A stretch of DNA of 27,067 bases from positions 1 to 27,067 of the IMG/VR virus record IMGVR_UViG_3300025921_000065. The stretch is one strand, 5' to 3'. Positions 415 to 26,110 of the stretch are shown piece by piece (position 1 is the stretch's first letter; each line of letters starts with the position of its first letter). Origin of the DNA: a virus. A program made the position numbers and the translations under genes. Under the pieces are notes generated by a model. It made no database searches. It saw only the letters and a program-made list of their open reading frames with translations, and was not told the origin of the DNA.

Positions 415-416
415 AC

Positions 417-1274: not shown

Positions 1275-1282
1275 GAAACGCG

Positions 1283-3978: not shown

Positions 3979-4002
3979 CCGAAGCCTGAAGGAGCCCTGC
4001 CC

Positions 4003-6244: not shown

Positions 6245-6268
6245 CTCCGCCACGGAGCAGCCCGGAAT

Positions 6269-6278
6269 TTCGCGCGAA
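6269..6278. promoter_or_regulatory. TTCGCGCGAA palindrome upstream of scaffold gene
   Basis: The short gap between the MuF-like and scaffold genes contains a perfect 10-bp palindrome within an unusually A/T-rich patch (AATTTCGCGCGAATTACG) for this GC-rich operon. It could be an operator, a small mRNA hairpin that raises scaffold and capsid expression, or chance. Only symmetry and position support it. Confidence 0.2.
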
Positions 6279-6317
6279 TTACGCGCACCCACCGACCCGT
6301 CACGGGAGAGGACACGC

Positions 6318-6896
6318 ATGCCCGAGGCCACGACGACGACCGGCACGGTCGACGACGACACCACGGCAACAGGCACCATCACCGCAGCCGGCGCGACCGA
6401 CGACGGCGCCACCGGCGCCGAGGACGAAGACGCGGCGCTCGAGGCGCTGCAGCAGCTGCTGAAGGAGTCCGGTCTGAAGCCGGAGCAGCTCAAGGGCCGG
6501 CTCGAGGCTTCCCGCAAGTGGGAGCAGCGCGCCAAGAGCAACGCGGCGGCCGCGCAGAAGCTCGCTGAGCTCGAGCGGTCGACCATGAGCGACGCGGAGA
6601 AGATCGCCGAGGCGCACATCCGCGCGGCCGAAGCCGAACTGTCTCTGACCAGGTTCACCGTCGCGGCCGCGAAAGGCCTGCCGGCAAGCGCCGCGCAGTT
6701 CCTCTACGGCGACGACGAGGACGAGATCAACTCGGCCGCCGACGACCTGCTCGCGTTCGCCAAGACCCTCGGCGGCACGGCGACACAGACACCGGCTCCG
6801 GACCTCAAGCAGGGCCGGCGCGGGGCCGCACCCGGCGCGCAGACCGACCCCAACGCCTGGTTCCGCGGCCTGGCGCGAGGCCGCAACACCACCTGA
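6318..6896 (+). CDS. Scaffolding protein
   Basis: The 192-aa product is placed directly before the major capsid gene and has classic scaffold composition: a low-complexity Thr/Ala/Asp N-terminus (residues 1-35), an acidic patch, a long charged helix (about 38-125: KESGLKPEQLKGRLEASRKW, AEKIAEAHIRAAEAELSLTR), and a short C-terminal region ending in basic residues that would touch capsid subunits. ATG follows GGGAGAGG. It would direct capsid assembly and then leave. Assignment is from position and composition, since scaffolds diverge quickly. Confidence 0.85.
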   Translation: MPEATTTTGTVDDDTTATGTITAAGATDDGATGAEDEDAALEALQQLLKESGLKPEQLKGRLEASRKWEQRAKSNAAAAQKLAELERSTMSDAEKIAEAHIRAAEAELSLTRFTVAAAKGLPASAAQFLYGDDEDEINSAADDLLAFAKTLGGTATQTPAPDLKQGRRGAAPGAQTDPNAWFRGLARGRNTT

Positions 6897-6970
6897 CCCC
6901 TGCAGCACCCGGACGTAGCCGCGACCGGATCGCTGTCTTCACCCGACCCCACCCGAATGTGAGGTAACCC

Positions 6971-7912
6971 GTGGCTACGTACAACAGCCTGGTTTCCCGC
7001 GACGCGTCCCAGGACCCCCTTGTCCCGGAACCGGTCGCGGCGCAGATCATCCAGGAGCTGCCGAAGGCATCGCACCTGCTCTCGCACGCCCGCAAGGTGA
7101 CGATGTCGTCACTGACCACCCGCCAGCCGGTCCTGTCCGTGCTGCCGCAGGCCTACTGGGTCGCCGGTGACACCGGCATGAAGCAGACGTCCAGCCAGGA
7201 CTGGAAGAACGTCGTGCTCACCGCCGAGGAGATGGCCGTCCTCGTCCCGATCCCCAACGCCTACATCGACGACGCCCAGGTTCCGGTCTGGGACGAGGTG
7301 CGGCCGCGGATCGTCGAGGCCTTCGGCTACCTGCTCGACGCGGCCGGCCTGTTCGGTGTGTCCGCGCCGGCGACGTTCTCCACCGACATCTACACCGGGG
7401 CGGTCGCCGCCGGCAACAAGGTCAACGTCGGCACACTCGCCGACGTCGGCGCCGACGTCACCGAGCTCGGCGTCACCCTCGCCAAGCAGGGCTTCACCAT
7501 CAACGGCTTCGCACTCGCGCCCGGGTTCGAGTGGAACCTGGTCGGTATCCGCGGCGCCAACGGCCAGCCCGTCTACACCCAGAACCCGGACGGCAACAGC
7601 CTCTACGGCCGCGCCTGCTCCGAGCTGGAGAACGGCGCGATGGACCCGACCAAGGCCTCGGTCATCGGCGGCGACTGGAGCAAGGCCGTCGTCGGCCTGC
7701 GCCAGGACATCACGTTCTCGATGCACGAGGACGGCATCATCAGCGACGACAGCGGCGCGGTCGTGTTCAACGCGATGCAGCAGGACTCGACCATCCTGCG
7801 CGCCGTGTTCCGGGTCGGCTTCGCCACCGCGAACCCGGTAACGCGCCTGCAGTCCGACGAGACCAAGCGCTACCCGTTCGCGGTCCTGTCGCCGATCGCC
7901 GAGCTCAGCTGA
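6971..7912 (+). CDS. Major capsid protein (HK97 fold)
   Basis: The 313-aa product has features of actinophage HK97-fold capsid proteins: an N-arm (MATYNSLVSRD), then VAAQIIQELPKASHLL, LSVLPQAYWVAGDTGMKQTS, and VLVPIPNAYIDDAQVPVWDEVRPRI (shown in parts), consistent with E-loop and spine-helix regions. The A-domain side includes GFALAPGFEWNL and DITFSMHED. GTG at 6971 follows GAGGT. No long cleavable delta domain is fused, in line with a separate scaffold gene upstream. The first 21 codons are echoed by the small gene at 1283. It is followed by a glycosyltransferase gene instead of a connector. Confidence 0.93.
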   Translation: MATYNSLVSRDASQDPLVPEPVAAQIIQELPKASHLLSHARKVTMSSLTTRQPVLSVLPQAYWVAGDTGMKQTSSQDWKNVVLTAEEMAVLVPIPNAYIDDAQVPVWDEVRPRIVEAFGYLLDAAGLFGVSAPATFSTDIYTGAVAAGNKVNVGTLADVGADVTELGVTLAKQGFTINGFALAPGFEWNLVGIRGANGQPVYTQNPDGNSLYGRACSELENGAMDPTKASVIGGDWSKAVVGLRQDITFSMHEDGIISDDSGAVVFNAMQQDSTILRAVFRVGFATANPVTRLQSDETKRYPFAVLSPIAELS

Positions 7913-7954
7913 CCAGCTGACCGGCAGTAGCAGATAAACCGGGGCAGGGGAGAG

Positions 7955-8929
7955 GTGGCACCGTTGCGGGTCCTCGCGATGGTGCACCTCTTCCCGCCCC
8001 GGCACTGCGCCGGCGCGGAGCTGATGCTGCTGTCGATGCTGCGGCCGCTCGCCGACCGTGGCCACACCGTCGACGTGCTGCTGTCACGGCCGACACCAGA
8101 CACCGGCCCGTACGACCTGCACGGCATCACCGTGCACCCGCACAAGGGCCGCAACGACCCCTGGCCCTTCGTCGAGAACGCCGACGTCGTCATCACCCAC
8201 CTGGAAAACACCGCCCGGGCCGGCGCGCTGTGCGCGATGGTCAAACGCCCGCTCGTCCAGGTGCTGCACAACACCCACCCGACCACCAAGACGTTCCTCA
8301 CCGGCTCGACCGCGCTCGCGGTGTTCAACAGCCAATGGATGGCAGACGACTTCGCCTACACCGGCCGGCAGCTCATCGTCCGGCCGCCGGTGTTCGCCGA
8401 GGAGTACCGCACCAAACCCGGCCGCGCGGTCACCCTGATCAACCTCAACGAGGCCAAAGGCGCGCACACGTTCTACGCGCTTGCCGAACGGCTACCTGAC
8501 GTCGAGTTCCTCGGCGTGGTCGGCGCCTACGGCGAGCAGCTCATCCGCACCGACCTGCCCAACGTCACCGTCCTCGAGCACGGCCAGGACATGCGCGCCG
8601 TCTACTCGCGCACCCGCGTGCTGCTGATGCCCTCGTCCTACGAGTCATGGGGCCGCGTCGGCGTCGAAGCGATGTGCTCCGGCATCCCGGTCATCGCCAA
8701 CCCGACACCCGGTCTGCGCGAAGCGCTCGGCGAGGCCGGCACCTTCGCCGACCGTGATGACATCGACAGCTGGCAGGCCGAGCTCAGCCGGCTGCTGCAG
8801 CCGACCGCATGGCGCGCCGCGTCCAAACGCGCCAAGACCCGCGCCGGCGAACTCGACCCGACCGTCGATCTGGACCGCTGGTGCGCCGCGATCGAATACC
8901 TAGCCCGAGGAGCGCGTCGTGTCGCTTGA
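7955..8929 (+). CDS. GT4-like glycosyltransferase in head operon
   Basis: The product (324 aa) has the two-Rossmann plan of a GT-B retaining glycosyltransferase. An N-terminal LRVLAMVHLFPP with CAGAELMLLSMLRPLADRGH binds the acceptor. The C-terminal half has NEAKGAHTF, a loop around LLMPSSYESWGRVGVEAM with the EX7E pair Glu230 and Glu238, and PVIANPTPGLREAL, which are the usual nucleotide-sugar contacts of family GT4. No signal peptide or membrane segment is seen, so it acts in the cytoplasm. GTG at 7955 is listed, but TTG at 7964 is better spaced from GGAGAGG and may be the true start. It lies directly behind the capsid gene and overlaps the connector gene by 11 bases, so capsid or tail glycosylation is the natural inference. 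Donor and target are unknown. Confidence 0.85.
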   Translation: MAPLRVLAMVHLFPPRHCAGAELMLLSMLRPLADRGHTVDVLLSRPTPDTGPYDLHGITVHPHKGRNDPWPFVENADVVITHLENTARAGALCAMVKRPLVQVLHNTHPTTKTFLTGSTALAVFNSQWMADDFAYTGRQLIVRPPVFAEEYRTKPGRAVTLINLNEAKGAHTFYALAERLPDVEFLGVVGAYGEQLIRTDLPNVTVLEHGQDMRAVYSRTRVLLMPSSYESWGRVGVEAMCSGIPVIANPTPGLREALGEAGTFADRDDIDSWQAELSRLLQPTAWRAASKRAKTRAGELDPTVDLDRWCAAIEYLARGARRVA

Positions 8930-10601: not shown

Positions 10602-10616
10602 TATTCCGCCGGAATA
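10602..10616. repeat. Palindrome copy 1 (TATTCCGCCGGAATA)
   Basis: A 15-bp inverted repeat with 7-bp arms and a single central base, located between the tail terminator and major tail genes, 51 bases upstream of the major tail ATG. The same core occurs at 22471, 23999 and 26301. It is A/T-rich for this operon. This is the only copy lying fully outside a coding region, so it could act as an operator, a transcript processing hairpin or a recombination site. Confidence 0.85.
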
Positions 10617-11252: not shown

Positions 11253-11576
11253 GTGGCCGCACTGGACAAGCTCGCGGCTGAAGCCGCGACCAGCACCAGC
11301 ACAGTGACCGTCCCGCTCGGCCCAGACGCTGTCGACATCGACGTCCTGCCTGTACGTGACTGGCGGCCGCGGCACCTGCGTGCCATCGCCGACGGCGACT
11401 ACGACAGCTGGGCCGCCGGCTGCCTCACCGAGGCTTCCCTCGCGTCCTGGAACGACGTCGACCCGACCCTCGGCGACATCGACGCGTTCTTCACCGCCTG
11501 GATGGCCGCCACCGGCCAGGACCCGGGGAAATCACCGGCCTCGCAGCGTTCCTCGAGGAGCACTGCGAGGCGGTAG
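11253..11576 (+). CDS. Tail assembly chaperone, short form
   Basis: The 107-aa zero-frame product corresponds to lambda gpG. It has strands LGPDAVDIDVLPVRDWRPRHLRAIADGDYD (in parts) and a helical end (IDAFFTAWMAATGQDPGK). After the slip point the zero frame runs only 14 more codons through low-complexity SPASQRSSRSTARR and stops. That tail looks like non-functional read-on, which supports frameshifting as the main purpose. The GTG start is one base past the major tail stop. It should coat the tape measure during tube growth. Confidence 0.88.
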   Translation: MAALDKLAAEAATSTSTVTVPLGPDAVDIDVLPVRDWRPRHLRAIADGDYDSWAAGCLTEASLASWNDVDPTLGDIDAFFTAWMAATGQDPGKSPASQRSSRSTARR

Positions 11577-11989
11577 AGGCGGACCTCGCCCGGTTCTACC
11601 CCGGCGTGCGGCTGCGCCAGCTCTACACCGGCGAGCTCACCTGGCGTGAGCTCGCCGCATACCTGGCGCAGCTGCCGCTCGAGTCAGCCACCCAAACCCT
11701 GCGGATGGCCGAGCTCAGCGACAACGACTTCGCCGAACTCGCTGAGCAGGAACACACCCACGGGCCCTGGTCACACACGGACCTGCTGCTCGCCGCCCTC
11801 ATCGACTCCGTCGAACGCCTCACCTACGTGCAGGTACGCCGCGGCGGGGTGAAGACCGCGACCCCACCCAAACCGGTGCCGCGGCCCGGCATCCCCGCAG
11901 CCGCAAGCCGCGGCCGCCCCACGGCGAGCGCCGAGAGCCGCGCCTACCTCGAGCGGCTCCGCGCCCGGCACCGCACCACCCAGAAATGA
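11253..11989 (+). CDS. Tail assembly chaperone, -1 frameshift fusion
   Basis: The second frame, entered by a -1 shift near 11525-11531, continues GEITGLAAFLEEHCEAVEA, DLARFYPGVRLRQLYTGELTW, RELAAYLAQLP and on to 11989. The fusion corresponds to lambda gpGT. The new frame joins the helical end of the short form without a gap in sense, and FYPGV-LR-LYTGELTWREL is a typical T-domain motif. The C-terminal part is a Pro/Arg/Ala-rich tail. No start codon suited to independent translation of the T part is apparent (an ATG-like start at 11606 would remove its first conserved segment). Confidence 0.85.
11525..11531 (+). other. -1 slippery site GGGGAAA
   Basis: In the zero frame this reads as the last G of CCG followed by GGG and AAA. 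Slipping back one base re-pairs Gly tRNA on GGG perfectly, while the Lys tRNA would face GAA, so P-site slippage or imperfect A-site re-pairing is implied. It lies in the overlap of the two chaperone frames, 48 bases before the short-form stop. The heptamer type is common in actinophage chaperone genes. Confidence 0.75.
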
Positions 11990-12014: not shown

Positions 12015-14936
12015 GTGAGCGACGGCGGCATCCGGGTCGGTGAAGTCACCGTCGACGTCGTCCCCGACGGCGGCGAGTTCTGGAACAGGTTCAAGGCCGG
12101 CGCCGAACCCGGTGCCACACAGGCCGGCGACAACCTCGGCAAGACCATCGCCGACCGCATCGCCGCCAAGGTCCGCGACGCGCTGCCCGGCGCGCTCGCC
12201 GCCGGCACCCGCGCCGCCGGTGCGCAAGGCGCTGCCGCCGGCGACAGCTTCGGCGGCTCGTTCGCGCGGACCGTCCGCACCCGCATCGACGCCGCGCTCC
12301 GGGACCTGCCACAGCCGCACGTCGGCGTCGACGCTACCGAGCTCGACGCCGAACTCGCGGACATCCGCGGCCGGCTCGAGGCGTTACGCGACGTCCGTGT
12401 CGGCGTCGACATCCAGACCACCGACGCCCTCGCCGAGCTGGACCGGCTGACCGCACGGATCGACGAGCTCGGCGCCCGCTCGCCCGACATCAACGTGCAA
12501 GTGGATGCGGTCAAGGCCTCCGCCGAGCTCGCCGCCATCCAGGCCGAGGTCGACGCGCTCGACGGCGAAGACATCACCCTCAATGTGGCCGCGGACACCG
12601 GCCCCGCGCTGTCCGGGCTGTCCGCGATGGAAGGCGTGATCGCCGGTCTCGGGCCCGCGCTGATCCCGATCGGCGCCGCAGCGACCGCCGGCCTCGCGGG
12701 CATCGCGACCGCAGCCGCCTCTGGCGCCGCCGGACTCGGCGTCCTCTACCTCGGCGCGTCCCAGGTGAGCGCCGCTGTGAAGCTCCTCGGCCAGGAACAC
12801 ACGGCCGAAGCCCAGCAGGCCGCGAACGCCGCCGCCGGCGAGACCGCCGCGGCATCAGCTCAGGCCGCCGCCGCCAGGCAAGTCCAGGCTGCCACCCAAT
12901 CGCTCGCGCTCGCCCGGCAACAGGCCGCCTCGCAGGAGATCTCCGCGACCGAGGCCGTCGCCGCCGCGCAGTACGCCAAGACCCAAGCCGACCAGCAAGA
13001 GGCCGCAGCCCAGCAGGCGCTCAACCAGGCCCGCGAACAAGCCGCCCGCGACCTCGAGTCCTCGTCCAACCGCGTCGTCGACACCCAACTCGCCGCACGC
13101 CAGGCCGCGATCGATGTGCAAAACGCGCAGGCCACCTACAACGCGACGCTCGCCTCCGGCACCGCGACGACGCTGCAGAAACAGCAAGCCGCTCTCGACC
13201 TCGCGAAAGCCCAACAGGCACTCGTCGAGGCGAACGAGGCCGCCAAGCAAGCCGAGCAAGACAACAACGCCGCGCAGAAAGCCGGCGTCGCCGGCGCCCC
13301 CGGCGTTGTCGCCGCCGCGAAGGCCGTCGCGGACGGCCATCACAACCAGCAGCAGGCGGCCCAGCAGCTCGCCGACGCCGAACGCAACCGGGCACTCGTC
13401 GAAAAGCAAGCCGCGGCCAGCATCACCCAGGCCAGCAACGCATTGACGGCCGCGCTCGCGCAGCAGCAGAAAGCCGCGCAAGGAACCGGCACCGCCGGCG
13501 CGACCGCGTTGCAAACGATCCGGGGCGAACTCGCCAAGACCAACCCCGCCGTCCTCGCCTTCGCCCAGTTTTGGACCGGAACCCTCGTCCCCGCTTTCAC
13601 GCAGCTCAAGAACATCGCGGCCGCCGGCTTCCTCCCCGGGCTGCAGGCCGGATTCAAGGCGATGACACCGCTGCTGCAGCCGTTCGCCGCCTTCGTCAGC
13701 AGTGTCGCGGTCGCGCTCGGTTTCCTCTTCCAGCAAGCCGGCCAGGCGCTCACCGCACCGTTCTGGACCCAGTTCTTCGCCTACATCCAGCAGACCGCCG
13801 GACCAACCCTCATCGAGATGGGCCAAGCCTTCGGCAACATCGCCAAAGGCTTCGCCGGACTCTTCGAAGCGTTCGGCCCGATCGTCAACACGATCGGCGC
13901 AGGTTTCGTCAGGTTCACCGCAGCGTTCGCGCAATGGGCAGCCGGCCTGTCCTCCAACGGCGGCTTCCAGAAGTTCCTGCAATACGTGCGGACCAACGGC
14001 CCGCGCGTCGTCGACCTGTTCGTCAACCTCGCCGGCGTCCTCGGCAAGCTCATCACCGCCTTCGCCCCGCTCGGCGCCGTCATCCTGCAAGTCGTCGGGT
14101 TCATCGCCAGGCTGCTCAACAACATGAACACCGACCAGTTGCTCGAGTTCGTCGCCGGCATTGGGCTGCTCGTCGCATCACTCACTGGCGGCGCCGGCCT
14201 CGCTGTCGCTGTCGTCGCCCTGGCCACTCTTGTGGTCAACCACTGGACGCCGATCAAGAACTTCTTCCTGCACCTGTGGCAGGACATCGTCAACGAGTTC
14301 CACCGCAACATCCAGACCGTCGAGTCAGTGCTCGGCGCGTTCAGCACAGCCGGGCTGGCAGTCGGCCGGTTCTTCTCCGGCCCGTTCGTCGGGTTCTTCA
14401 CCGGCATGTGGCGCGACATCGTCAACGAGTTCCACCGCAACGTCGCGACCATCACGCACGCCGCCGACACGATCGTCGGGTTCTTCCAGAAGCTGCCCGG
14501 ACGCATCGCAACCGCCTCCACCCACATGTGGGACGGGATCGCGTCCGCGTTCCAAGGCGTCATCAACATGATCATCGGCTGGTGGAACGGCCTGAGTTTC
14601 AACCTCGATATCCCCTCAAACATCGTGACTCGGTTCCTGCATCTCGCCGGGCAAGGCTTCACCCTCAGTACCCCTGACCTCCCGCTACTGCATTTCGCGG
14701 ACGGTGGCATGGCCACCGCGGCAACCCTCGGCGTCTTCGGTGAAGCCGGCCGGGAAGCAATCCTGCCGCTGGACAACCCGAACGCGATCGCCGCGATCCG
14801 CGACGCCCTCGCCCCGCGCGGGCATTCCGGCCCGCTTGTCGGCGAGCTGGTCATCAACAACCCGAAGCCGGAGCGCTCCTCAACCGCGCTGCCACGCGCG
14901 CTGCGCAAAGCCGCCTACCAGCTGGGCTACGCATGA
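12015..14936 (+). CDS. Tape measure protein
   Basis: The 973-aa product sets tail length and is probably ejected with DNA. Residues 1-200 are mixed helix and strand with repeated Asp-Val motifs; 208-248 form a hydrophobic Ala/Gly-rich segment; about 260-495 is a long Ala/Gln coiled coil; 500-800 holds further hydrophobic segments (VAVALGFLFQQAG, GGAGLAVAVVALATLVV); then two copies of a W-x-DIVNEFHRN unit; the end has FADGGMATAATLGVFGEAGREAILPL, a common tape-measure ending. With the usual estimate of 1.5 angstrom per residue the tail would be about 145 nm. GTG follows CGGAG. No lytic transglycosylase or peptidase motif is recognised. Confidence 0.93.
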   Translation: MSDGGIRVGEVTVDVVPDGGEFWNRFKAGAEPGATQAGDNLGKTIADRIAAKVRDALPGALAAGTRAAGAQGAAAGDSFGGSFARTVRTRIDAALRDLPQPHVGVDATELDAELADIRGRLEALRDVRVGVDIQTTDALAELDRLTARIDELGARSPDINVQVDAVKASAELAAIQAEVDALDGEDITLNVAADTGPALSGLSAMEGVIAGLGPALIPIGAAATAGLAGIATAAASGAAGLGVLYLGASQVSAAVKLLGQEHTAEAQQAANAAAGETAAASAQAAAARQVQAATQSLALARQQAASQEISATEAVAAAQYAKTQADQQEAAAQQALNQAREQAARDLESSSNRVVDTQLAARQAAIDVQNAQATYNATLASGTATTLQKQQAALDLAKAQQALVEANEAAKQAEQDNNAAQKAGVAGAPGVVAAAKAVADGHHNQQQAAQQLADAERNRALVEKQAAASITQASNALTAALAQQQKAAQGTGTAGATALQTIRGELAKTNPAVLAFAQFWTGTLVPAFTQLKNIAAAGFLPGLQAGFKAMTPLLQPFAAFVSSVAVALGFLFQQAGQALTAPFWTQFFAYIQQTAGPTLIEMGQAFGNIAKGFAGLFEAFGPIVNTIGAGFVRFTAAFAQWAAGLSSNGGFQKFLQYVRTNGPRVVDLFVNLAGVLGKLITAFAPLGAVILQVVGFIARLLNNMNTDQLLEFVAGIGLLVASLTGGAGLAVAVVALATLVVNHWTPIKNFFLHLWQDIVNEFHRNIQTVESVLGAFSTAGLAVGRFFSGPFVGFFTGMWRDIVNEFHRNVATITHAADTIVGFFQKLPGRIATASTHMWDGIASAFQGVINMIIGWWNGLSFNLDIPSNIVTRFLHLAGQGFTLSTPDLPLLHFADGGMATAATLGVFGEAGREAILPLDNPNAIAAIRDALAPRGHSGPLVGELVINNPKPERSSTALPRALRKAAYQLGYA

Positions 14937-15676
14937 CCGCGCCGCTGCAGTACCTGCTCGACGGCGTCGACGTGGCGAACTACGCCCGCACACTGCTCAC
15001 CAACGGGACCGACCTGCCGATGGTGGGCGACGACAACGCCGTCCCGTTCGCGCCGGGCGCGAAGTTCCGCCGCCGCACCCCCGGCCCCGGCGAACTGCAA
15101 ATCGGGCTGCTCATCAACGGCACCAACGACGCCGGCGACCCGGAGACCGTCGCGCAGTGGCAGCAGAACTGGGCCGACTTCAAGGCCTTCGTCTGGAGGC
15201 CGGAGACCGCGCGCACGCTCACCCGCCGGCTGCTCACACCGTCCGGCGTCGTCGAGTCCTCGGCGCTGGTCACTCTCAACCAGCTGCCGCAGGAAACCAT
15301 GCAGAGCGACCGGACCTGCACCACGGTGCTCGACCTGCGTGTCCTCGACGGCTACCTGTACGACACGGCCGCGGTCACCGTCACCGCACCCGGCACCGAC
15401 ACCATCGCCGGTGAAGCCCGCACCAACCGGCTCATCATCACCATGGGCGCCGGCACCCTCACCAACACCACCACCGGCGCGATCCTCACCTACAGCGGCG
15501 CCGGCACCGTCACCATCGACGTCGCCAACTGGACCGCGACCTCTGGCGGCAGCTCCGTCATCGGTGACCTGTCCTGGCCGGCCGCCGGACACGACTGCTG
15601 GTTCGACCTCGACCCCGGCGCCAACGTCCTCACCGGCACCGCGTCGATCGAATACAACGCGGCCCGGCTGCCATGA
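14933..15676 (+). CDS. Distal tail (Dit-like) minor tail protein
   Basis: The 247-aa product begins immediately after the tape measure (ATGA overlap). Its N-terminal half (LQYLLDGVDVANYARTLL, FRRRTPGPGELQIGLLINGT, WADFKAFVWRPETARTLTRRL in parts) resembles the ring-forming domain of distal tail proteins, and the C-terminal half (VTVTAPGTDTIAGEARTNRL, TIDVANWTA, WFDLDPGANVLTG) looks like the galectin-like beta-sandwich fused in many Dit proteins. Such rings close the tube end and anchor the fibres. Position is the strongest support. Confidence 0.78.
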   Translation: MTAPLQYLLDGVDVANYARTLLTNGTDLPMVGDDNAVPFAPGAKFRRRTPGPGELQIGLLINGTNDAGDPETVAQWQQNWADFKAFVWRPETARTLTRRLLTPSGVVESSALVTLNQLPQETMQSDRTCTTVLDLRVLDGYLYDTAAVTVTAPGTDTIAGEARTNRLIITMGAGTLTNTTTGAILTYSGAGTVTIDVANWTATSGGSSVIGDLSWPAAGHDCWFDLDPGANVLTGTASIEYNAARLP

Positions 15677-17271
15677 CCGTGCCGGACCGGATCTTCGCCT
15701 CGGTCTGGACACCTGACCTCGCTACCTGCCTCGCCGTGCTGCCCGACCGGTGCAACCTGTCATGGCAGGACCCGCTGAACGGCTCCGGCCTGGGCTCGCT
15801 CGACGTCCCGTACGACGACCCGGCCGTCACCTACCTGCGTGACCGCAACATCGTCCGGTTCTGGTGGGCCGGTGATTACCGGTACGCGTTCCGGATCCAG
15901 AACCCGAAGAACGTCGCCGTCGACACCGACGGCGAGGTCGACCAGTGGCTGACCATCACCGGGCCAGGCGTGCAAGACGTCATCAACGACGCGATCCTGT
16001 TTCCCGAAGGCGGCTTCAACCGCGACGCCGGCGACCAACGCACCTTCAACTACTCCTCCGCCGCCGGCGATTGGTACGTCTCCAGCGAATGGGCCGCACC
16101 CGCCGGTGTCGCCTGGACAGCTGACACCACCGCACGCGCCGGCTACCCGAAAGGCTGGCCGGACAGCTCGGCCGAATGGATCTGGGACACCAACCCGGAC
16201 ACCGACGACACCGACCTGAAAGTCGTCTACTTCCGCGCCACCTTCACCCTCACCGCGAACTCGCCGGTCGCTATCTACGCCACCGCCGACAACTTCCTCG
16301 ACCTGTACCTCAACGGTCAACAGATCATCACCAGCGACCTGACCAACCCGCTCACCTGGCGGGCCGCGACCCCGTACAACGTCAACCTGCCGGCCGGCAC
16401 CTACCTGCTCGCCGCCCGCGTGCAGAACGCCGCCAAGGCATGGCCGACCCAGCAGAACCCGGCCGCGTTCCTGTGCACCGTCGCCACCACCAGCAGCGCC
16501 GGCGTCATCGACACGGTCGTGCTGCGCAGCGACACCACCAGCTGGCTGTGCCGCCCCGAAGGCACCACGCCGCCCGGCTGGCACGCGGCGCTCATCCTCA
16601 AGACATTCGTCGAAGAGGCGCAGGCGCGCAGCGTCACCGCCCTCGCTCCGCTGACGCTGGACTACACCTCAACCGACGACACCGCCGGCGTCGCGTGGAC
16701 CGACATCGTCGACACCGCCTACAACGTCGGCACCAAAGGCGCCGACCTCATCGAGAAGCTCACCGAACTCGGCATCGACGTACAGGTCGACGCCAACCTC
16801 GTGCTGCACGCCTGGACTCAACGCGGCACCGACCGGTCCACCGGCGCCAACCCGGTCGTGCTGCGCCCGGCGCTCAACCTCGACCAGCTCGAGCTCGACA
16901 CCGACCTCGGCATCACCACGCACCTGCTCGTTCGCACCCCCAATGGGTGGGTTGAGATCGCCGCCGCCAACGAAGCCACCGACGGCCGGGTCGAAGACCT
17001 TCTTTCCCTCGGCAACGCCGGCAGCGACGCGCAGGCCACCAGCCAAGCCGAAGCCGCGTTCACCGACATCGCCACGCCGACCACCACATTCACCGCGGCC
17101 TGCGTCCCGGTCGAGGGCGCAACACCCTACGTCGACTTCGACAACGGCGACACAGTCCTCGCACCCGACGGCACCGGCGGGGCGGCAGCGCTGCGCGTCA
17201 TGTCCATCAGCGTCAGCGAAGACGCGACCAGCGGCGCGATCAGTTTCGTCCCCGAGCTCTACGAGGCATGA
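15673..17271 (+). CDS. Tal-like minor tail protein with inserted beta-sandwich
   Basis: The 532-aa product follows by ATGA overlap and has the layout of actinophage base-of-tail proteins. It starts with a hub-like segment (CNLSWQDPLNGSGLGSLDVP, RNIVRFWWAGDYRYAFRI). Residues about 165-290 form an inserted domain with a sugar-binding look: AEWIWDTNPD, VVYFRATFTL, VAIYATADNFLDLYLNGQQI, YLLAARVQNAAKAW, which resembles galactose-binding or fibronectin-like sandwiches. The hub fold then resumes (LIEKLTELGIDVQVDANLVLHA) and ends with the usual FVPELYEA. It likely forms the tip hub and touches cell-surface glycans. Substrate unknown. Confidence 0.8.
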   Translation: MTVPDRIFASVWTPDLATCLAVLPDRCNLSWQDPLNGSGLGSLDVPYDDPAVTYLRDRNIVRFWWAGDYRYAFRIQNPKNVAVDTDGEVDQWLTITGPGVQDVINDAILFPEGGFNRDAGDQRTFNYSSAAGDWYVSSEWAAPAGVAWTADTTARAGYPKGWPDSSAEWIWDTNPDTDDTDLKVVYFRATFTLTANSPVAIYATADNFLDLYLNGQQIITSDLTNPLTWRAATPYNVNLPAGTYLLAARVQNAAKAWPTQQNPAAFLCTVATTSSAGVIDTVVLRSDTTSWLCRPEGTTPPGWHAALILKTFVEEAQARSVTALAPLTLDYTSTDDTAGVAWTDIVDTAYNVGTKGADLIEKLTELGIDVQVDANLVLHAWTQRGTDRSTGANPVVLRPALNLDQLELDTDLGITTHLLVRTPNGWVEIAAANEATDGRVEDLLSLGNAGSDAQATSQAEAAFTDIATPTTTFTAACVPVEGATPYVDFDNGDTVLAPDGTGGAAALRVMSISVSEDATSGAISFVPELYEA

Positions 17272-18296
17272 TGGCACGCAAACCGCCCCGCAGCCGCGAA
17301 CAAAGGCAGACCCGCTGGGCCCAGTCGATGACACCCGGCACCCTCGGCGGCCGCGTCGCGGCCGCCGCCCCGCTCAGCGTCGACATCACAAGACTCGCGG
17401 CCCGCATCCGCGGCGCCTCACTGCCACCCGGCGAGACCGGCTTCGACCCGAACGCCGACCCGATCATCATCGGCCAATTCGCGAGCGCGTCCGGCGGTGC
17501 GCGTGGCATCGCGATCGGTGTATCCGCGGAGGACAACGGGTCGGAAGCCATCGCCATCGGTTGGTTCTGCACAGCCGGTGGCGCTGACTCAGTCGCGCTC
17601 GGACCGAACTGTGAGACCTCTGCTATCGACGCGGTCGCTGTCGGGTCCGACGCGGGCGCCGATGGCGTGTCTTCCGTCGCCATTGGCGACCATGCCCGCG
17701 GTTGGGGTGATTACGGCGTCGCTATCGGTGCCCTCGCCGAAGCGACTACGGGTGTGTCGCAGGCGATCGCTATTGGTCGTATTGCTCGGGCTCTCGCCGA
17801 CGAAAGCATCGCGATCGGCCACGATGCGAAGGTCAATACTGGCGCGACCGGTGGAGTCGGCTTAGGTCAGGGTGCACTATCGCAAGGCGTCCAAGCCATC
17901 GCGATTGGGCAGACCTCCGTCGCATCCGCCGATTACACCGTCGCGATCGGTGAGGCAGGCGCAACTGCGCTACGGGCCACAGCAGTCGGCGATAGTTCGA
18001 CGGCTGCTGGCCAATTCTCCACAGCACTTGGGTATGGATCGGATGCCGAACCTGATTACGCCACTGCGATCGGCACGCATGCATTCGTCGCAACGGCGCA
18101 TACTCACTCCTCCGCGATAGGCGCAGACGCCGCGACCACCAAAGCCAATCAAGTCATGCTCGGCACAAGCAGCGACTTCGTTGAGATCCCCGGCAACGGC
18201 GCCACGAACGGCATTGTCTTCACGGACACCGCAACAAGCACCCGCTGCCTGATCCAGGTCACCTCAGGTGCCCTAGTGCTGAACGCCGCGCCGTGA
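17268..18296 (+). CDS. Tail fibre with YadA-like beta-roll repeats
   Basis: ATG at 17268, or 17271, overlaps the previous stop. Residues 1-70 are a basic, Pro-rich attachment region. Residues about 78-300 hold roughly fifteen degenerate 13-17-residue repeats each ending in [IVT]A[IVL]G, for example GIAIGVSA, SIAIGHDA, TAIGTHAF, the signature of the left-handed beta-roll heads of trimeric adhesins such as YadA. The C-terminus (QVMLGTSSDFVEIPG, CLIQVTSGALVLNAAP) resembles phage fibre ends. The repeat section uses noticeably more A/T-ending codons than its neighbours, suggesting separate ancestry. Probably a trimeric receptor-binding fibre. Confidence 0.8.
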   Translation: MMARKPPRSREQRQTRWAQSMTPGTLGGRVAAAAPLSVDITRLAARIRGASLPPGETGFDPNADPIIIGQFASASGGARGIAIGVSAEDNGSEAIAIGWFCTAGGADSVALGPNCETSAIDAVAVGSDAGADGVSSVAIGDHARGWGDYGVAIGALAEATTGVSQAIAIGRIARALADESIAIGHDAKVNTGATGGVGLGQGALSQGVQAIAIGQTSVASADYTVAIGEAGATALRATAVGDSSTAAGQFSTALGYGSDAEPDYATAIGTHAFVATAHTHSSAIGADAATTKANQVMLGTSSDFVEIPGNGATNGIVFTDTATSTRCLIQVTSGALVLNAAP

Positions 18297-18479: not shown

Positions 18480-18776
18480 ATGCCTCCCCGGCCCCGCACT
18501 CCTATCGACGACATCACCATCGGCGAGCTCGGTCGCCGACTCGACGAGATCCGCGGAGACGTCCGCGAGCTCACCAGTTACATGCGTGAGCACGTCGAGA
18601 ACCTGCCGGCCAACTACGTGCCGCGCACCGAGCTCGACGGCCGGCTCGGCCGCGTCGAGACCGACGTCACCGCGCTGAAGAGCGACCAGGTGTCCGGGCT
18701 GCGCTCCACCCTGCTCACCCTCGCCGCCTCCCTTCCCGGCCTCGCTGGCCTCGCGCTGGCCGTCGTCAAGCATTAG
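18480..18776 (+). CDS. XhlA-like membrane protein
   Basis: The 98-aa product has a charged helical cytoplasmic part (GELGRRLDEIRGDVRELTSY, LDGRLGRVETDVTALKSD) followed by one C-terminal hydrophobic segment (LRSTLLTLAASLPGLAGLALAVV). This is the layout of XhlA-type hemolysin or lysis accessory proteins, found beside endolysin and holin. ATG follows AAGGGG. It could assist the holin at 19560 in permeabilising the membrane, or act as an antiholin. Clear as a tail-anchored membrane protein, less so as to role. Confidence 0.7.
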   Translation: MPPRPRTPIDDITIGELGRRLDEIRGDVRELTSYMREHVENLPANYVPRTELDGRLGRVETDVTALKSDQVSGLRSTLLTLAASLPGLAGLALAVVKH

Positions 18777-18785
18777 GAGATCTCG

Positions 18786-19550
18786 TTGCGCACTTCCACG
18801 GTCAGCGCGCTGCTGCGCGTCCTGCGCGCCCAGCTCGGCTATGTCGAGCAGGGCGGCAGCGACGGCAAGAGCGGCAACATCACCAAATACGGCGCCGCGT
18901 TCGGATGGAACGGCGTCGCCTGGTGCTCCATCTTCGTCTGGTGGGTCTTCGCCCAGATCGGTGTCGACCTCGAGCAGCTGTTCACCCGGTTCTGGGCCGG
19001 CTGCGCGGAAGCGGTCGACGCCGCCCGGCGCAAGGGCTGCTTCCACCCCGGCGTCCTCGGCATCCGCGCCGGCGACATCGCCTACTTCCACTTCCCAGGT
19101 GAGGCCGCGGGCGCCGATCACACCGGCATCGTCGAGTACCTCGACCGCAACGGCGTCCACACCATCGAAGGCAACACCACGCCCGCAGCGGCGGTCAGCG
19201 ACCCGAACGGGGGAGGGGTCTACCGGCGTTTGCGGCCGACGTCGCAGTTCATCGGTCACACCCGCGTCCCGGGGCTGCGTTATGACCTCGGCACCAAGGT
19301 CAAGGCCGCCGTCAAGAAGGTCACGGCGAAAACCTATCCGCCGCTGCACCGCGACTCGACCGGCAAGAACGTCGTACGGCTGCAGAAGCTGCTGAAAGCC
19401 GCCGGCGTCCGCGTCGACGGACACCCACTCACCGTCGACGGCGACTACGGCGACAAGACCGAACGCGCCGTCCGCGGCTTCCAAACCAGCCACCACCTGC
19501 ACGTCGACGGCGACGCCGGGCCGAAGACGCTCGCCGCCCTCAAGTTCTAG
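18786..19550 (+). CDS. Endolysin: CHAP amidase plus PG-binding domain
   Basis: The 254-aa lysin has an N-terminal CHAP-type cysteine hydrolase domain (about 10-165). The catalytic Cys47 lies in GVAWCSIFVWW, His112 in ADHTGIVEYL, and the third residue probably in TIEGNT (Glu128 or Asn130). A linker (KAAVKKVTAKTYPP) leads to a PG_binding_1 domain (about 186-252: GKNVVRLQKLLKAAG, VDGDYGDKTERAVRGFQ). It cleaves peptide or amide bonds in peptidoglycan at the end of infection. No signal peptide, so release needs the holin. TTG at 18786 follows AGGAGAT at proper spacing; no competing ATG keeps the N-terminal helix. No mycolyl esterase (LysB-like) gene was noticed nearby. Confidence 0.93.
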   Translation: MRTSTVSALLRVLRAQLGYVEQGGSDGKSGNITKYGAAFGWNGVAWCSIFVWWVFAQIGVDLEQLFTRFWAGCAEAVDAARRKGCFHPGVLGIRAGDIAYFHFPGEAAGADHTGIVEYLDRNGVHTIEGNTTPAAAVSDPNGGGVYRRLRPTSQFIGHTRVPGLRYDLGTKVKAAVKKVTAKTYPPLHRDSTGKNVVRLQKLLKAAGVRVDGHPLTVDGDYGDKTERAVRGFQTSHHLHVDGDAGPKTLAALKF

Positions 19551-19951: not shown

Positions 19952-20218
19952 ATGGCTTTCAAGTCCGCCCAAGTCACTGTCGGCACGTCCCCGACGGCGA
20001 TCAACGGCGCCGACGCCGACCACATCTTCGGTCAGTCCCTGACGTTCTGGTGTTCCGTCGCTGTCGCGATCGGCGGCGAGGACGTCGCCTGGGCGAACTG
20101 CGCGCAGATCCCGGCGAACACCTTCTACCCGGTCGACTCGCTCGAGCCCGGAGAGGTCGTCTACCTCGCCACCCAGTCCGGCAGCGCGACTGTGCACGTC
20201 GTGCACCAGGGGGTCTGA
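19952..20218 (+). CDS. Small beta-sandwich protein, 88 aa
   Basis: The product (QVTVGTSPTAINGADADHIF, GQSLTFWCSVAVAIGGEDVAW, EPGEVVYLATQSGSATVHVV) reads as a compact all-beta domain with a pattern seen in small actinophage proteins encoded near tail fibres or capsids: a VTVGTSPTAIN start and a GSATVHVVHQGV end. A decoration or fibre-accessory role is possible. ATG follows a weak GAGACGAGA site. I do not know an established function. Confidence 0.65.
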   Translation: MAFKSAQVTVGTSPTAINGADADHIFGQSLTFWCSVAVAIGGEDVAWANCAQIPANTFYPVDSLEPGEVVYLATQSGSATVHVVHQGV

Positions 20219-20221
20219 CCG

Positions 20222-21019
20222 ATGGGGATGGACCCTCGACCACTGCCCGGCATCACCGGCGCCGTGTCATCGGTCAACGGCCACACCGGCACCGTCGTCC
20301 TGGCCGCGAGCGACGTCAGCGCTGACGCCTCCGGGGCCGCCGCGGCCGCGCAGACGGCCGCGGAGGCCTACACCGACACCGCGGCAGCCGGCAAAGGCAA
20401 CGTCGTCGTGCACGGCTCGACCGCCGGCACCGCCCGTCCCGCCGGCGCCGCCTTCGTGCACTGGATCGGTTCGGTCGCGCCGACCAACGCGACCGGCAAC
20501 GACGAGTGGACCGACACCGCCAACAAGGCGCTGAAGCGGTGGAACGGCAGCGCGTTCGATGCGCTTAGTGGCGCCTCTGTGCCGATCGGGTTCCTGCTAG
20601 GCGCGACCGGCGACTACAGCGTCTGGCCGCCGGACGTCACGACGTGGTCCGCTCAATCTGGACAGACCCAGCCCGATTGGATCACCATCGATGAGTCTGG
20701 CTCGGTGAGCCTGGCTCCCGGCATGTATCAGTTGACCATCGACGTCGAGATCGGATTCGCGACGCCGCCGACCACAGGCTCAGTCGAATTCCACGCCCAG
20801 GTAACCGACAGAATGTTGTTCGACTATGTGCTGTCAGCAGCGGAGATCGCTGCCGTTGGCAGCGACGGCGATATCGTTCGTGTCGGGTTCCCGAGCATTG
20901 TTCAACCCACGGATGGCGGCACGGCGCTTGAGTTCAGCACGGCCGGTTCCGGAACGCTTGACCAGGCGGTGACGCTCGACTGGGCGGGCATCGCGATCGT
21001 GCGGCTGGCTGAGGGTTGA
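20222..21019 (+). CDS. Tail fibre protein, 265 aa
   Basis: The N-terminal region has SVNGHTGTVVLAASDVSADA, the collar motif frequently seen in actinophage and Gram-positive phage fibres, then an Ala-rich helix (AAAAAQTAAEAYTDTAAAGK). Residues about 60-110 include a small domain with FVHWIGSVAP and KRWNGSAF. The C-terminal part (PGMYQLTIDVEIGFA, DWAGIAIVRLAEG) is a C1q/TNF-like jelly-roll in appearance. The frame ends at TGA 21017-21019 but stays open in phase afterwards into the propeller at 21131. ATG at 20222 or 20228 are both possible; the first is nearer the usual spacing. Confidence 0.8.
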   Translation: MGMDPRPLPGITGAVSSVNGHTGTVVLAASDVSADASGAAAAAQTAAEAYTDTAAAGKGNVVVHGSTAGTARPAGAAFVHWIGSVAPTNATGNDEWTDTANKALKRWNGSAFDALSGASVPIGFLLGATGDYSVWPPDVTTWSAQSGQTQPDWITIDESGSVSLAPGMYQLTIDVEIGFATPPTTGSVEFHAQVTDRMLFDYVLSAAEIAAVGSDGDIVRVGFPSIVQPTDGGTALEFSTAGSGTLDQAVTLDWAGIAIVRLAEG

Positions 21020-21130
21020 AGAGAACCGCCGCCGCCGCCACCGGCGACGATCACAACCTCGCAACTTGCTGCGCCTAGTCTGATCGCGGCGCAGGCGACC
21101 TCTACAGGCAAGCAGGTCCACCGGCTCTCA

Positions 21131-22027
21131 TTGTGGTCGGATCGCGTCTATGTCGCTTACGGCGACTACGGCGCGAACACCGGCCCGATCCATGCGCTGT
21201 CCATCGACCCCGGCACCGGCACGGTCAACGACGAAGCGACTCTCACGACTGATGCAACCTGGATCTTCCGGACGACAAGCCTAGGTCTGACCGCACCGTT
21301 CGTAGACCCGCAGGGTTCGTTCGACCCGTCCACCGGACAGTACGCCCACGCCTTAACCCCCGACTCATGGACCATCGCCACAGACGTCGCGCCGGTCCCT
21401 GAGCATGTGTTCGACGTTGTCGAAACAGTCGAGGGGCTGTGGCTATTCGGCTCGGCAGGCATGAACGCGATCATCTGGCGTTCCGCCGACGGCGGGGCCA
21501 CATGGACGGCGTCGCTCACGGTCGCGGGCACCGGGCTGGCCCGCTTCTACAGCGGCATGGCTTTCACCGATGGCACGATCCTCACAATATTCGAGGACAC
21601 CGCTGCGACCAGCCTCTATCAGTGGTCGGCCGGGACGTGGACGAATCTGGCCGGGTCACCCGCGACGGTCGGCGACGCTGTCCGATTTGCTCGCAACGGG
21701 GTGGAGTTCTTCTATTGCATCGACACGTCTAAACAGGACGGTCTAGCGGCCGACTCCGCTTGGCATGTCGTCACGAAACCGGGTGTCGACCCTTCGCCGA
21801 TCACCGCCGCACTTCCGTCTGGGTTCGTGCTGGACGCAACCGTGACGCCAGACGGACAGAAACTGCTGATACTTGCAGGTAACGGCACCGTCTACCGGAT
21901 CGGGCAGACAGGAGCCCTCGAAACGCTCGGGCAGCTCGACGTTCCCGCGACGGCACTCGCCGCTGACAACGTCGGGAATCTTTACCTAGGCACGACGGCA
22001 GGCACCATCCGGACGGCGACCGTCTAA
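21131..22027 (+). CDS. Beta-propeller tail fibre domain (in-frame after TGA)
   Basis: The 298-aa frame has propeller-type repeats: VFDVVETVEGLWLFGSAGMN, IIWRSADGGATWTASLTVAG with a clear Asp-box (S-x-D-x-G-x-T-W), LYQWSAGTWTNLAG, and late blades GQKLLILAGNGTVYRIG and NVGNLYLGTTAGTIRTATV. A glycan-binding or sialidase-like fold is likely, though no catalytic set can be named. The only start codon is TTG at 21131, with a poor binding site, and it falls inside a strand (RLSLWSDRVYVAYGDY). The frame is open back to 21020, adding a Pro6 linker and 37 codons in phase with the preceding fibre gene. The propeller is therefore probably the C-terminal part of that fibre, made by readthrough or separated by a mutation. 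Confidence 0.65.
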   Translation: MWSDRVYVAYGDYGANTGPIHALSIDPGTGTVNDEATLTTDATWIFRTTSLGLTAPFVDPQGSFDPSTGQYAHALTPDSWTIATDVAPVPEHVFDVVETVEGLWLFGSAGMNAIIWRSADGGATWTASLTVAGTGLARFYSGMAFTDGTILTIFEDTAATSLYQWSAGTWTNLAGSPATVGDAVRFARNGVEFFYCIDTSKQDGLAADSAWHVVTKPGVDPSPITAALPSGFVLDATVTPDGQKLLILAGNGTVYRIGQTGALETLGQLDVPATALAADNVGNLYLGTTAGTIRTATV

Positions 22028-22163: not shown

Positions 22164-22189
22164 GGGGCCGGGACACTAAGCCCGGCCCC
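22164..22189. terminator. Hairpin terminator after fibre operon
   Basis: GGGGCCGGG (22164-22172) pairs perfectly with CCCGGCCCC (22181-22189) around an 8-base loop. It sits between the last plus-strand fibre gene and the 3' end of a minus-strand gene, so it can stop both transcripts. No U-tract follows on the plus strand; the minus strand has CTTTTAG about 15 bases beyond. The remaining intergenic sequence (22028-22243) shows no gene. Confidence 0.65.
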
Positions 22190-22465: not shown

Positions 22466-22733
22466 CCGGATATTCCGCCGGAATATTCGGCAGCTTCGGC
22501 CGCTCATCGGAACGCTCCGGCCAATGCCAGGTACCGCCGCCGGGATGCTCACGGCCGTCGTACGACGTGGTCGGCTGGAAGAACAAGCCGGTCGGGTTCA
22601 GCACCGCCAGCCCGACCACGCCTTGGGTCTTGCCGACCTGGGTGACGATCGCGGCCCGGCACTCCTTGCCGAACTCCCCGCCCGGCGTGCCGTGCGACAC
22701 GTAGTGCACGACCCGCCCGACCGTCGGGGTCAC
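22458..22733 (-). CDS. Conserved actinophage-type hypothetical protein, 91 aa
   Basis: GTG at 22733 overlaps the upstream stop as GTGA. The sequence GRVVHYVSHGTPGGEFGKEC, then RAAIVTQVGKTQGVVGLAVLNPTGLFF and GGTWHWPERSDE, is a type often found as an orphan small gene in actinobacterial phages and prophages; this is recollection, not a search result. It appears to be a small beta-barrel (SH3-like). The normal ending seems to be near the WPERSDER region; the last residues KLPNIPAEYPGG come from the palindrome, so the C-terminus may be a later addition. Role unknown. Confidence 0.72.
   Translation of the reverse strand: MTPTVGRVVHYVSHGTPGGEFGKECRAAIVTQVGKTQGVVGLAVLNPTGLFFQPTTSYDGREHPGGGTWHWPERSDERPKLPNIPAEYPGG
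22471..22485. repeat. Palindrome copy 2 (TATTCCGCCGGAATA)
   Basis: The core is identical to copies 1 and 3. Here it lies within the last codons of the minus-strand gene ending at 22458, encoding the peptide end NIPAEYPGG, and just before the start of the next gene. Flanks extend the symmetry on one side (GGA to the left, TTCGG to the right). Confidence 0.85.
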
Positions 22734-23275: not shown

Positions 23276-24220
23276 ATGAACAGCAACGAGCTTGCGGTGC
23301 GCGCGTCGGCGCCTGTCGACCGCGCGGCCGGCCCGGTCATCAACTCACCGACGCAACTCGTCGCCGCGGCGTTCCTCGCCGGCTACACCGGCCGCACCCG
23401 CGAGGCCTACGACACCGACCTGCGCCAGTTCTTCGACTGGTGTGCATGCGTGCAGGTGGATCCGCTCGCGGCCGCCCGCATGCACGTGCAGGTCTACATC
23501 CGTGAGCTCGAGGAGCGCCTGGTCGCCTCGAGCATCGCCCGCAAGCTCTCCGCGCTGTCCGGCTTCTACTCCTACGCCGCGGCCGAGGACCTCATCAAGC
23601 GATCGCCGATGACCGGGCTGCGCCGACCCAAGGTGTCCGACGAGTCCCCGCGGTTCGGTCTCGACCGGCACGAGCTCGCCCGGCTGTTGGAAGTTGCCAA
23701 CACCCACAGCCCGGTCGCGTACGCGCTCGTGTGCCTGCTCGCGTTCAACGGGCTGCGCGTGTCCGAAGCGTGCAAGGCGACCGTCGCCGACCTGGCGGAG
23801 GAGCGCGGGCACCGGCTGCTCACGGTCACCCGAAAGGGTGGCAAGCGTGCAAGGATCCCGCTCGCGCCGCGCACCATCGAGGCGATCGCCGCGCTACCGT
23901 CCATGACTGACGTCGGCGCGTCTGCCCCCGTGGGCGCGTCGGCGTTGCTGTTCGGCATCGACCGGTTCGCCGCGTGGCGGCTGATCCGACGGCTCGCTTA
24001 TTCCGCCGGAATATCCAAGCCGATCTCGCCGCACTCGCTGCGCCACACGTACGTGACGCTCTCGCTGGACGCCGGCGTCGAGCTGCGCGACGTGCAAGAC
24101 GGCGCCGGGCACGCGGATCCGCGGACCACCCGCCGCTACGACCGCGGCCGCAACTCACTGGACCGCGCACCCACCTACCGGCTCGCCGCGTACGTCGACG
24201 TCGACGAGGACGTCGCCTGA
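23276..24220 (+). CDS. int: Tyrosine integrase (XerC/D-like)
   Basis: The 314-aa site-specific recombinase would insert and excise the phage genome. The N-terminal core-binding (SAM-like) domain spans about 24-105 (LAGYTGRTREAYDTDLRQFF, SIARKLSALSGFYSY). The catalytic domain has all expected residues: Arg161 (NGLRVSEAC), Lys187 (VTRKGGKRARI), His253 and Arg256 (PHSLRHTYVT), His279 (GAGHADPRTT) and nucleophile Tyr288 (RRYD). There is no arm-binding domain, so it resembles Xer-type more than lambda Int. ATG follows AAAGGCGG. Codons 242-246 (YSAGI) are formed exactly by palindrome copy 3. No excisionase is recognised nearby. Confidence 0.93.
   Translation: MNSNELAVRASAPVDRAAGPVINSPTQLVAAAFLAGYTGRTREAYDTDLRQFFDWCACVQVDPLAAARMHVQVYIRELEERLVASSIARKLSALSGFYSYAAAEDLIKRSPMTGLRRPKVSDESPRFGLDRHELARLLEVANTHSPVAYALVCLLAFNGLRVSEACKATVADLAEERGHRLLTVTRKGGKRARIPLAPRTIEAIAALPSMTDVGASAPVGASALLFGIDRFAAWRLIRRLAYSAGISKPISPHSLRHTYVTLSLDAGVELRDVQDGAGHADPRTTRRYDRGRNSLDRAPTYRLAAYVDVDEDVA
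23999..24013. repeat. Palindrome copy 3, inside integrase
   Basis: TATTCCGCCGGAATA occupies codons 242-246 of the integrase in phase, encoding Tyr-Ser-Ala-Gly-Ile just before the HxxR catalytic motif. Such a position matches a natural Ala-Gly-Ile turn in the family, so the site may be coincident with protein constraint or a functional site embedded in coding DNA. Confidence 0.85.
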
Positions 24221-24770: not shown

Positions 24771-25193
24771 TCACCGTCCATCCAGCTCGTCGAAGATGGT
24801 GAGCTGGTCGTCCGTCACCTCGGGCCATTCCTCCACCTCCTGCGGCTCGACCTTCGGACCCACGGCGGGCACTCGGGTGATGGGCGGGAGCCAGCCGAGG
24901 GCTGAGTGCTTCCGCTCGAAGTTGTAGTAGTTGAGGAACTCGGCGAGCGCCTGCGTTCGATCCTGCTCCGAGTCGTAGGGCCGGCGGCGCAGCCACTCCG
25001 CGAGCATCGTCTGGTTGTACCGCTCGACCTTGCCGTTCGTGCGCGGCGTGTAGGGACGGGTCCGCTTGTGCCGGGTGCCGGTCTTGGTCAGCGCCTCGGC
25101 GAACGCTCGGGAGCGGTAGGGCGAGCCGTTGTCGGTCAGCACCCGGATGAACCGGTATGGCGTCCCTCGCCGGTGCTTGCCCGCGTACCTCAT
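24771..25193 (-). pseudogene. IS481-type transposase remnant (C-terminal part)
   Basis: The 140-aa frame starts with ATGA overlap at the end of the zinc-ribbon gene (MRYAGKHRRG) and runs into a rve-type integrase core: FIRVLTDNGSPYRSRAFAEA holds the second catalytic Asp, RPYTPRTNGKVERYNQTMLA the Glu, then LAEFLNYYNFERKHSALGWLPPITRV. The whole N-terminal half, including the helix-turn-helix and first Asp, is missing, so it cannot be active. After PPITRV the frame continues into unrelated acidic sequence (EVEEWPEVTDDQLTIFDELD). An expected closing TRVTNVMKYYS appears in another frame at 24736-24770, as though about 100 bases had been inserted. The first ten residues may belong to a phage gene cut by the element. 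Confidence 0.75.
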
Positions 25194-26110
25194 CCGGCCT
25201 CGGTCCACCGCGACAGCTGCTCGTCGCTGAGCCGGCCGCGGCCGCGGACGTCGGGCTCGTCGACTTCGACCCAACGCTCTTCGCCGGCGAGTTCTTCGAA
25301 TTGGAACCGCCAGCACCTGCGGGTGCCGTCGCCCCGGCGGCAGTCCGGGTTGCGGCACACCGCCCGGTCCTCGTCGGCGACGACGGTCTGCTGGTAGCAG
25401 TACATGCATTCGTTGACCGACGCGGTGAACCGGTTGCCGAGCACCATCGCCGCCGCCCGGCCGAGCAGACGCAGCGCTTCGCTGCGCACGGTCTCGGCGA
25501 GCATCGGCGCCTCATCGACGAGCTGGTCGGCGTGCAGCGCAAGGAACGCGAGCGTGTCGAGGACACCGTCGTCGATGCCGAGACCCTCCGCCGTCGGCCT
25601 GGGTCGTGGCGTTAGGCGGAGGGCCCGGCAGACGGAACGCTCCAGCCCGCGGAGCGTCACGACGAACCCGGGCCGATAGTTGTCCGGGTCGTCCAGTGTG
25701 GTCTCCGACGGCGCGAACTCGCTGGCCCAGTACCGGCCGGTCAGGAAGTCCAGCGCCAGCAGGTCGATCGGCACGGCGATGCCGCCGCCACCGCCGCTGC
25801 GGCCCTTCGTCGTACGGGTGCCGACGAGCTCGAGCAGATGCGGGTAGAACCAGGCGAGGCCGTGACGGTCCCAGTCCGGGTCGCACCACCAGGCGTCCTG
25901 TTGTGGCGCGAGCGCGGCCGCGCGGCGCTGCTCGAGCGTCAGCCTGGCGCCGGCCGTGCCGACCGGGCGTTCGCAGGCGCGGGTGTCCATCGGGTCGCGG
26001 CCGTTACGGCCGTCGGCGTGGTTGGCCGTGAGCAGCCGACGGAGCATCTCGCCGGGGGACGGTGGATCCGCTACCGCCCGCAACGTCAAATCGAACGCCT
26101 CCCCGCACAC
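25190..26110 (-). CDS. Zinc-ribbon conserved phage protein
   Basis: The 306-aa product from GTG at 26110 (ATG at 26047 is an alternative, after GGCGAG) resembles a phage protein with RACERPVG, a QQDAWWCDPDWDRHGLAWFYPHLLEL stretch (in parts), a low-complexity GRSGGGGG linker, and LLALDFLTGRYWASEF. The C-terminal third has a zinc ribbon: CMYC and, 15 residues later, CRNPDC, then RRCWRFQFEEL. Such genes are found in early regions of actinophages; the function is not established to my knowledge. The stop overlaps the transposase remnant start, which suggests the element entered just behind this gene without breaking its main body. Confidence 0.7.
   Translation of the reverse strand: MCGEAFDLTLRAVADPPSPGEMLRRLLTANHADGRNGRDPMDTRACERPVGTAGARLTLEQRRAAALAPQQDAWWCDPDWDRHGLAWFYPHLLELVGTRTTKGRSGGGGGIAVPIDLLALDFLTGRYWASEFAPSETTLDDPDNYRPGFVVTLRGLERSVCRALRLTPRPRPTAEGLGIDDGVLDTLAFLALHADQLVDEAPMLAETVRSEALRLLGRAAAMVLGNRFTASVNECMYCYQQTVVADEDRAVCRNPDCRRGDGTRRCWRFQFEELAGEERWVEVDEPDVRGRGRLSDEQLSRWTEAG

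Follow-up and report, generated by a model that had tools for sequence, protein, structure and literature searches.

Selected readthrough of a stop codon is documented for the RNA phage Qbeta, in which the coat protein ends at a UGA that is misread about 1 in 15 times; the resulting A1 protein has been shown in virions, and its in-phase extension comprises a separate domain and has a polyproline II helix at its start (PMC8067240). In the luteovirids, which are plant viruses, eukaryotic ribosomes read through a UAG at the end of the coat protein. This stop lies at a domain joint with a C-rich tract and a proline spacer just downstream, and its readthrough depends on five or more CCXXXX repeats, the first of which begins about 16-22 nt downstream (PMC3719023). 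Gp45, the receptor-binding protein (RBP) of Staphylococcus phage phi11, a phage of Gram-positive bacteria, consists of a fibre-like stem followed by a receptor-binding beta-propeller head. Its gene is uninterrupted and its structure is solved; the propeller has five blades, and an N-terminal strand closes the last of them (PMC4901313).

Here, we describe a locus in a soil phage that resembles each of these systems in part. As in Qbeta, a virion protein ends at UGA, and an in-phase extension with a proline-rich start carries a separate domain; however, the protein is a fibre of a tailed DNA phage rather than the coat protein of an RNA phage, and it is known from sequence only. As in the luteovirids, the stop coincides with the joint between two domains and is followed by a C-rich tract and a proline spacer, but this is a short CCG tract that starts 7 nt downstream and has no known effect on bacterial ribosomes. 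As in phi11, a fibre precedes a propeller, but in Gp45 the propeller is not preceded by a jelly roll, and no stop codon intervenes. Calling the two halves fibre and propeller is plausible but provisional. The explanation that we consider best, tentatively and with somewhat less than even confidence, is that a once-fused receptor-binding module is truncated by the UGA at the joint, or seems so through an assembly error, and that the long form is at most a minor leak product. The likelihoods that we attach to this and to three other explanations are judgements and not computed values.

The phage and its late genes

The window, i.e., the whole stretch of DNA analysed, is a linear IMG/VR virus record of 27,067 bases with 69% GC. 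The phage is actinobacterial and, judged by PHROG and Pfam matches for terminase (2299-3978), portal (4003-5442), tape measure (12015-14936), minor tail protein (15673-17271), endolysin (18786-19550) and tyrosine integrase (23276-24220), and by portal relatives in actinophages, it is temperate and of the siphovirus type. The fibre gene lies at 20222-21019. Portals of Streptomyces and Arthrobacter phages are up to 38% identical to that of the window, and Pseudonocardia sequences are 61-66% identical to the C-terminus of the integrase. The minor tail protein is 26-31% identical to those of KellEzio, DanielleIgnace, Magritte and Huwbert, which are phages of Arthrobacter or Microbacterium. A glycosyltransferase gene is present among the structural genes in three of these four phages, as it is here, where the probable glycosyltransferase gene (7955-8929) lies amid head and tail genes; the Arthrobacter phages KellEzio and DanielleIgnace and the Microbacterium phage Magritte have it at a similar place.

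Several further features were observed in the window. Directly after the minor tail gene, a gene for a YadA-head-repeat protein (17268-18296; Pfam E 2.5e-24) has foreign-looking codon usage (GC3 0.71) like that of the fibre and propeller module described below, and would be a second acquired adhesion gene. Two short genes at 11253-11989 stand ahead of the tape measure gene, a place taken in Arthrobacter relatives by a frameshifted tail assembly chaperone pair, and a frameshift site may be present there. On the minus strand, an integrase-core (rve_3) transposase-like fragment at 24774-25409, apparently spread across more than one frame, is located downstream of the phage integrase gene. The palindrome TATTCCGCCGGAATA (core of GGATATTCCGCCGGAATATCC) occurs at 10602-10616, 22471-22485 and 23999-24013 and, as a one-base variant, near 26298; these four places lie within or between genes, and the palindrome could be a phage repressor or partition site. 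Finally, 3' of the propeller, a plus-strand 9-bp G+C hairpin without a T-run (22164-22189; fold z −1.9) likely marks the end of the late operon.

A reading frame that continues past the fibre stop

The fibre frame runs on the plus strand from ATG 20222 to an in-frame TGA at 21017-21019, i.e., for 265 codons, and then continues for 335 more without a stop until the TAA at 22027, giving 600 sense codons in a single phase. The base after the TGA is A, and the sequence following the stop begins REPPPPPPATITTS. The preliminary description had the coordinates of this frame and its 600 residues right. The first 37 sense codons past the TGA (21020-21130) encode a REPPPPPP linker and the probable first propeller strands and, by direct reading, contain no ATG, GTG or TTG; the first in-frame canonical start is TTG 21131, from which the remaining propeller ORF extends to the TAA (21131-22027). 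In-phase neighbours are common in the late operon (TerL to portal, 18480 to 18786, and 19952 to 20222), but in these three pairs the next start follows at +8, +3 and +1 codons, respectively. Among 25 genes, the fibre gene is alone in being followed by a long, codon-biased stretch in the same phase that lacks a start within 8 codons.

By itself, the length of the downstream frame is weak evidence for a gene at 69% GC, as 16 of 805 stop-to-stop runs reach 335 codons. It is therefore conceivable that the frame does not encode a real protein and is either long by chance or left over from an old, decayed gene. The GC3 of only 0.76, codon scores near or below zero in some windows of the frame, and the lack of a homolog in the collections searched would fit this explanation. 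However, three observations make it very improbable. First, only this frame shows coding bias, and the bias stops at the TAA: frame +0 has a codon signal over most of 21062-22027, and the score over 21131-22024 is +0.15 bits per codon in this frame versus about −1.05 in the other two forward frames. Second, the encoded sequence is protein-like, with an Asp-box, and its codon usage is the same as that of the adjoining jelly roll. Third, the 335 codons contain no stops or shifts and no second lesion.

Alternatively, the locus might encode two proteins, with the propeller translated alone: ribosomes could reinitiate at TTG 21131, begin at a non-AUG codon within the linker, or use TTG 21016 and then slip frame in the CCG tract. 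The preliminary description held that the downstream part has no credible start, and our analysis agrees as regards ATG, GTG and TTG; non-AUG or frame-slip starts are conceivable. The anti-SD pairing at TTG 21131 is −5.0 kcal/mol, with an AGG about 15 nt upstream, which is a long spacing; this value does not stand out from random expectation (5th percentile −6.9, median −2.7), whereas the fibre's own start reaches −10.1. A start at TTG 21131 would also leave a gap of 111 nt, compared with 3-32 nt between neighbouring late genes. Moreover, the protein made would lack the N-terminal strand by which propellers are usually closed, for instance in the phi11 RBP (PMC4901313); if this strand closes the last blade here, residues from about 21044 are needed, and the product of TTG 21131 would be an unclosed propeller. 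Anti-SD scoring revealed no ribosome site of note at the non-AUG codons in the linker. TTG 21016, an option absent from the preliminary description, overlaps the stop as TTGA, a layout that resembles the four ATGA overlaps used in this phage (starts at 9530, 14933, 15673 and 17268). However, this TTG is out of phase and its plus-strand frame (21016-21078) meets a TAG at 21076-21078 after 20 codons, so that the propeller could be reached only after a frame slip in the CCG tract. Two proteins would agree with a fibre that looks complete by itself and with a codon signal in the linker that is too weak to prove that the linker is read through. Weighing these points, we regard separate translation of the propeller as unlikely.

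Two heads in one foreign-looking module

At its N-terminus, the fibre matches families of phage virion and tail proteins, namely a virion structural protein (phrog_2824, E 3e-5) and a minor tail protein (phrog_2952, E 0.01). The N-terminal part of the gene (20222-20557, plus strand) encodes a VNGxTG motif, a coiled-coil-like stretch and a WNGS domain. AlphaFold was run without an alignment and gave a pLDDT of 40 for both the fibre half and the propeller half; the fold matches are therefore hints only. For fibre residues 137-265, nearly all top fold matches of the model with pLDDT 40 belong to the TNF/C1q superfamily (Z up to 7.9, 115 aligned residues, rmsd 3.4), a consistent hint that the C-terminal part of the fibre (20558-21016, plus strand) is a TNF/C1q-like jelly roll. 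In the model, the last strand stops four residues short of the TGA, and the fold matches extend to residue 265; thus, the 265-residue short form looks complete. The downstream part contains one exact Asp-box motif, SADGGATW. BNR and propeller profiles gave only matches below the cut-off (BNR PF02012, E 0.5; Reg_prop PF07494, E 0.026), and the top Foldseek matches of the model with pLDDT 40 were mostly propellers but non-significant, with probability under 0.5 and TM about 0.15. Reading the sequence by eye rather than by computation suggests about seven blades, of which the last would lack its outer strand.

Codon usage bears on the relationship between the two heads. We scored synonymous codon choice along 20222-22024 and evaluated change points by permutation. 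A single change point is present at nt 20558, inside the fibre gene (mean +0.31 before and −0.26 after; permutation p about 0.001); there is no further one in 20222-22024 (second change point p 0.62), at the TGA or elsewhere. Before 20558, codon usage is native, with log-odds of +0.3 like core phage genes, while the C-terminal part of the fibre does not differ from everything past the TGA (Mann-Whitney p 0.75). Similarly, GC3 drops from 0.89 to 0.77 within the fibre and is 0.68 in the linker and 0.76 in the propeller. Codon usage of the linker (−0.19) equals that of both neighbours (−0.21 and −0.19); with 37 codons this is too little to prove translation, and it cannot tell a translated from an untranslated linker. 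Because there is a single break at 20558 and none at the TGA, jelly roll, Pro6 linker and propeller make up one foreign-looking module, which is carried by a native N-terminal anchor (to ...KRWNGSAF) and contains the TGA. The break at 20558 is apparently a swap of the receptor-binding module. The common codon usage demonstrates a shared origin but does not demonstrate a fusion: the pattern would be equally expected of two separate genes that had moved together.

Searches of viral, phage, plasmid and genome collections yielded no homolog of either half, and a comparison of the stop site with relatives therefore failed. No relative of either half was found in viral contigs, by tblastn of phages and plasmids (down to E 10 and 0.1), or in the examined regions of KellEzio, DanielleIgnace, Magritte and Huwbert; nor was a relative of the propeller found in genome contigs. 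A scan for further viral contigs did not detect the joint elsewhere, whichever codon was allowed in place of the TGA. Degenerate motif scans returned one match, which is unrelated. When whole genomes were searched for the propeller (297 of one family and 396 of a phylum), the single match was a BNR-type cellular protein of one actinobacterium, which aligns over 74 residues only (38% match). With the fibre, 11 matches were obtained in 399 genomes of an order; each was inspected, and they are due to chance (dehydrogenases, shadow frames and the like). Two IMG/VR contigs of the same population, L002 (100% identity) and L003 (99.7%), cover only the left end of the window, at 23-6773 and 4402-8815, respectively. 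As no fused relative was found, we infer the ancestral fusion from composition only.

Truncation or readthrough at the joint

UGA is the default stop in this phage, as 14 of 17 core genes end in TGA; a reassignment of UGA (genetic code 4 type) is rejected on these grounds. The sequence after the TGA has no special RNA structure (fold z −0.9 and 0.1) and the stop has no Rfam match at gathering level; with neither an exceptional fold nor such a match, selenocysteine at the UGA is without support.

In the case of selected readthrough, a near-cognate tRNA, probably tRNA-Trp, would extend a fixed minor share of the fibres at the UGA-A, so that each virion would bear a few fibres with two heads, comparable to A1 in Qbeta. 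That the stop lies at a domain joint favours readthrough or a gene boundary over random nonsense, and UGA followed by A is described as particularly prone to misreading by tRNA-Trp in E. coli (PMC5289835). In addition, a Pro-rich linker opens the extension, as in Qbeta A1 (PMC8067240) and the luteovirid readthrough domain (PMC3719023), and the 335-codon extension is intact, with coding bias and without a start. However, special RNA structure is missing past the stop, UGA is the default stop, and the UGA-A context recurs in 3 of 20 TGA-ended genes and so is not unusual in this genome. Moreover, there are no relatives to show conservation, and our literature searches did not turn up an example among tailed DNA phages, though examples may still exist. 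Altogether, we consider selected readthrough to be a real rival, albeit somewhat unlikely, and infer that a selected signal for it is absent. A more specific version, in which readthrough at the joint of jelly roll and propeller, across a short proline spacer, yields few two-headed among many one-headed fibres and thereby two receptors from one gene, is doubtful to a slightly greater degree. Readthrough and a recent nonsense mutation were the two outcomes offered in the preliminary description. Both survive. The case for one module is now stronger because codon usage breaks once, at about 20558, and is continuous across the TGA, while nothing here shows readthrough.

We return to truncation as the preferred explanation. 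We suggest that the phage acquired a two-headed receptor-binding module of jelly roll, proline linker and propeller, which replaced the old fibre C-terminus and at first was translated into a single long polypeptide. The joint between the two heads would now contain a UGA, and ribosomes would normally stop there to give a complete 265-residue fibre with a trimeric jelly roll cap. The propeller would have been cut off by a recent nonsense allele or, less likely, by an assembly error, and would then be made only at the low background leak of UGA-A. This model is favoured, first, by the lack of a start and ribosome site where a second gene should begin, unlike in the other in-phase neighbours; second, by the one change point at 20558 with none at the TGA and by a coding bias that is kept to 22027; and third, by a short form that looks complete, by UGA being an ordinary stop here, and by the lack of a stimulatory RNA structure and of an Rfam match. 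Against it, a random nonsense mutation or assembly error is not expected exactly on a domain joint; this argument is blunted by the fact that a fibre would still work only if it were truncated near the joint. It also counts against truncation that the 335-codon remainder is undamaged and that no fused relative was found, and adjacent separate genes transferred together would likewise share codon usage. Under truncation or readthrough, the propeller would be either lost or made only by occasional misreading of the stop.

If the stop is a truncation allele, the phage sheds one of two receptor-binding heads at a clean joint after having acquired both as one module. If readthrough is real, the principle of Qbeta A1 would extend to the fibres of tailed DNA phages and would provide a simple genetic tuning of receptor-binding stoichiometry.
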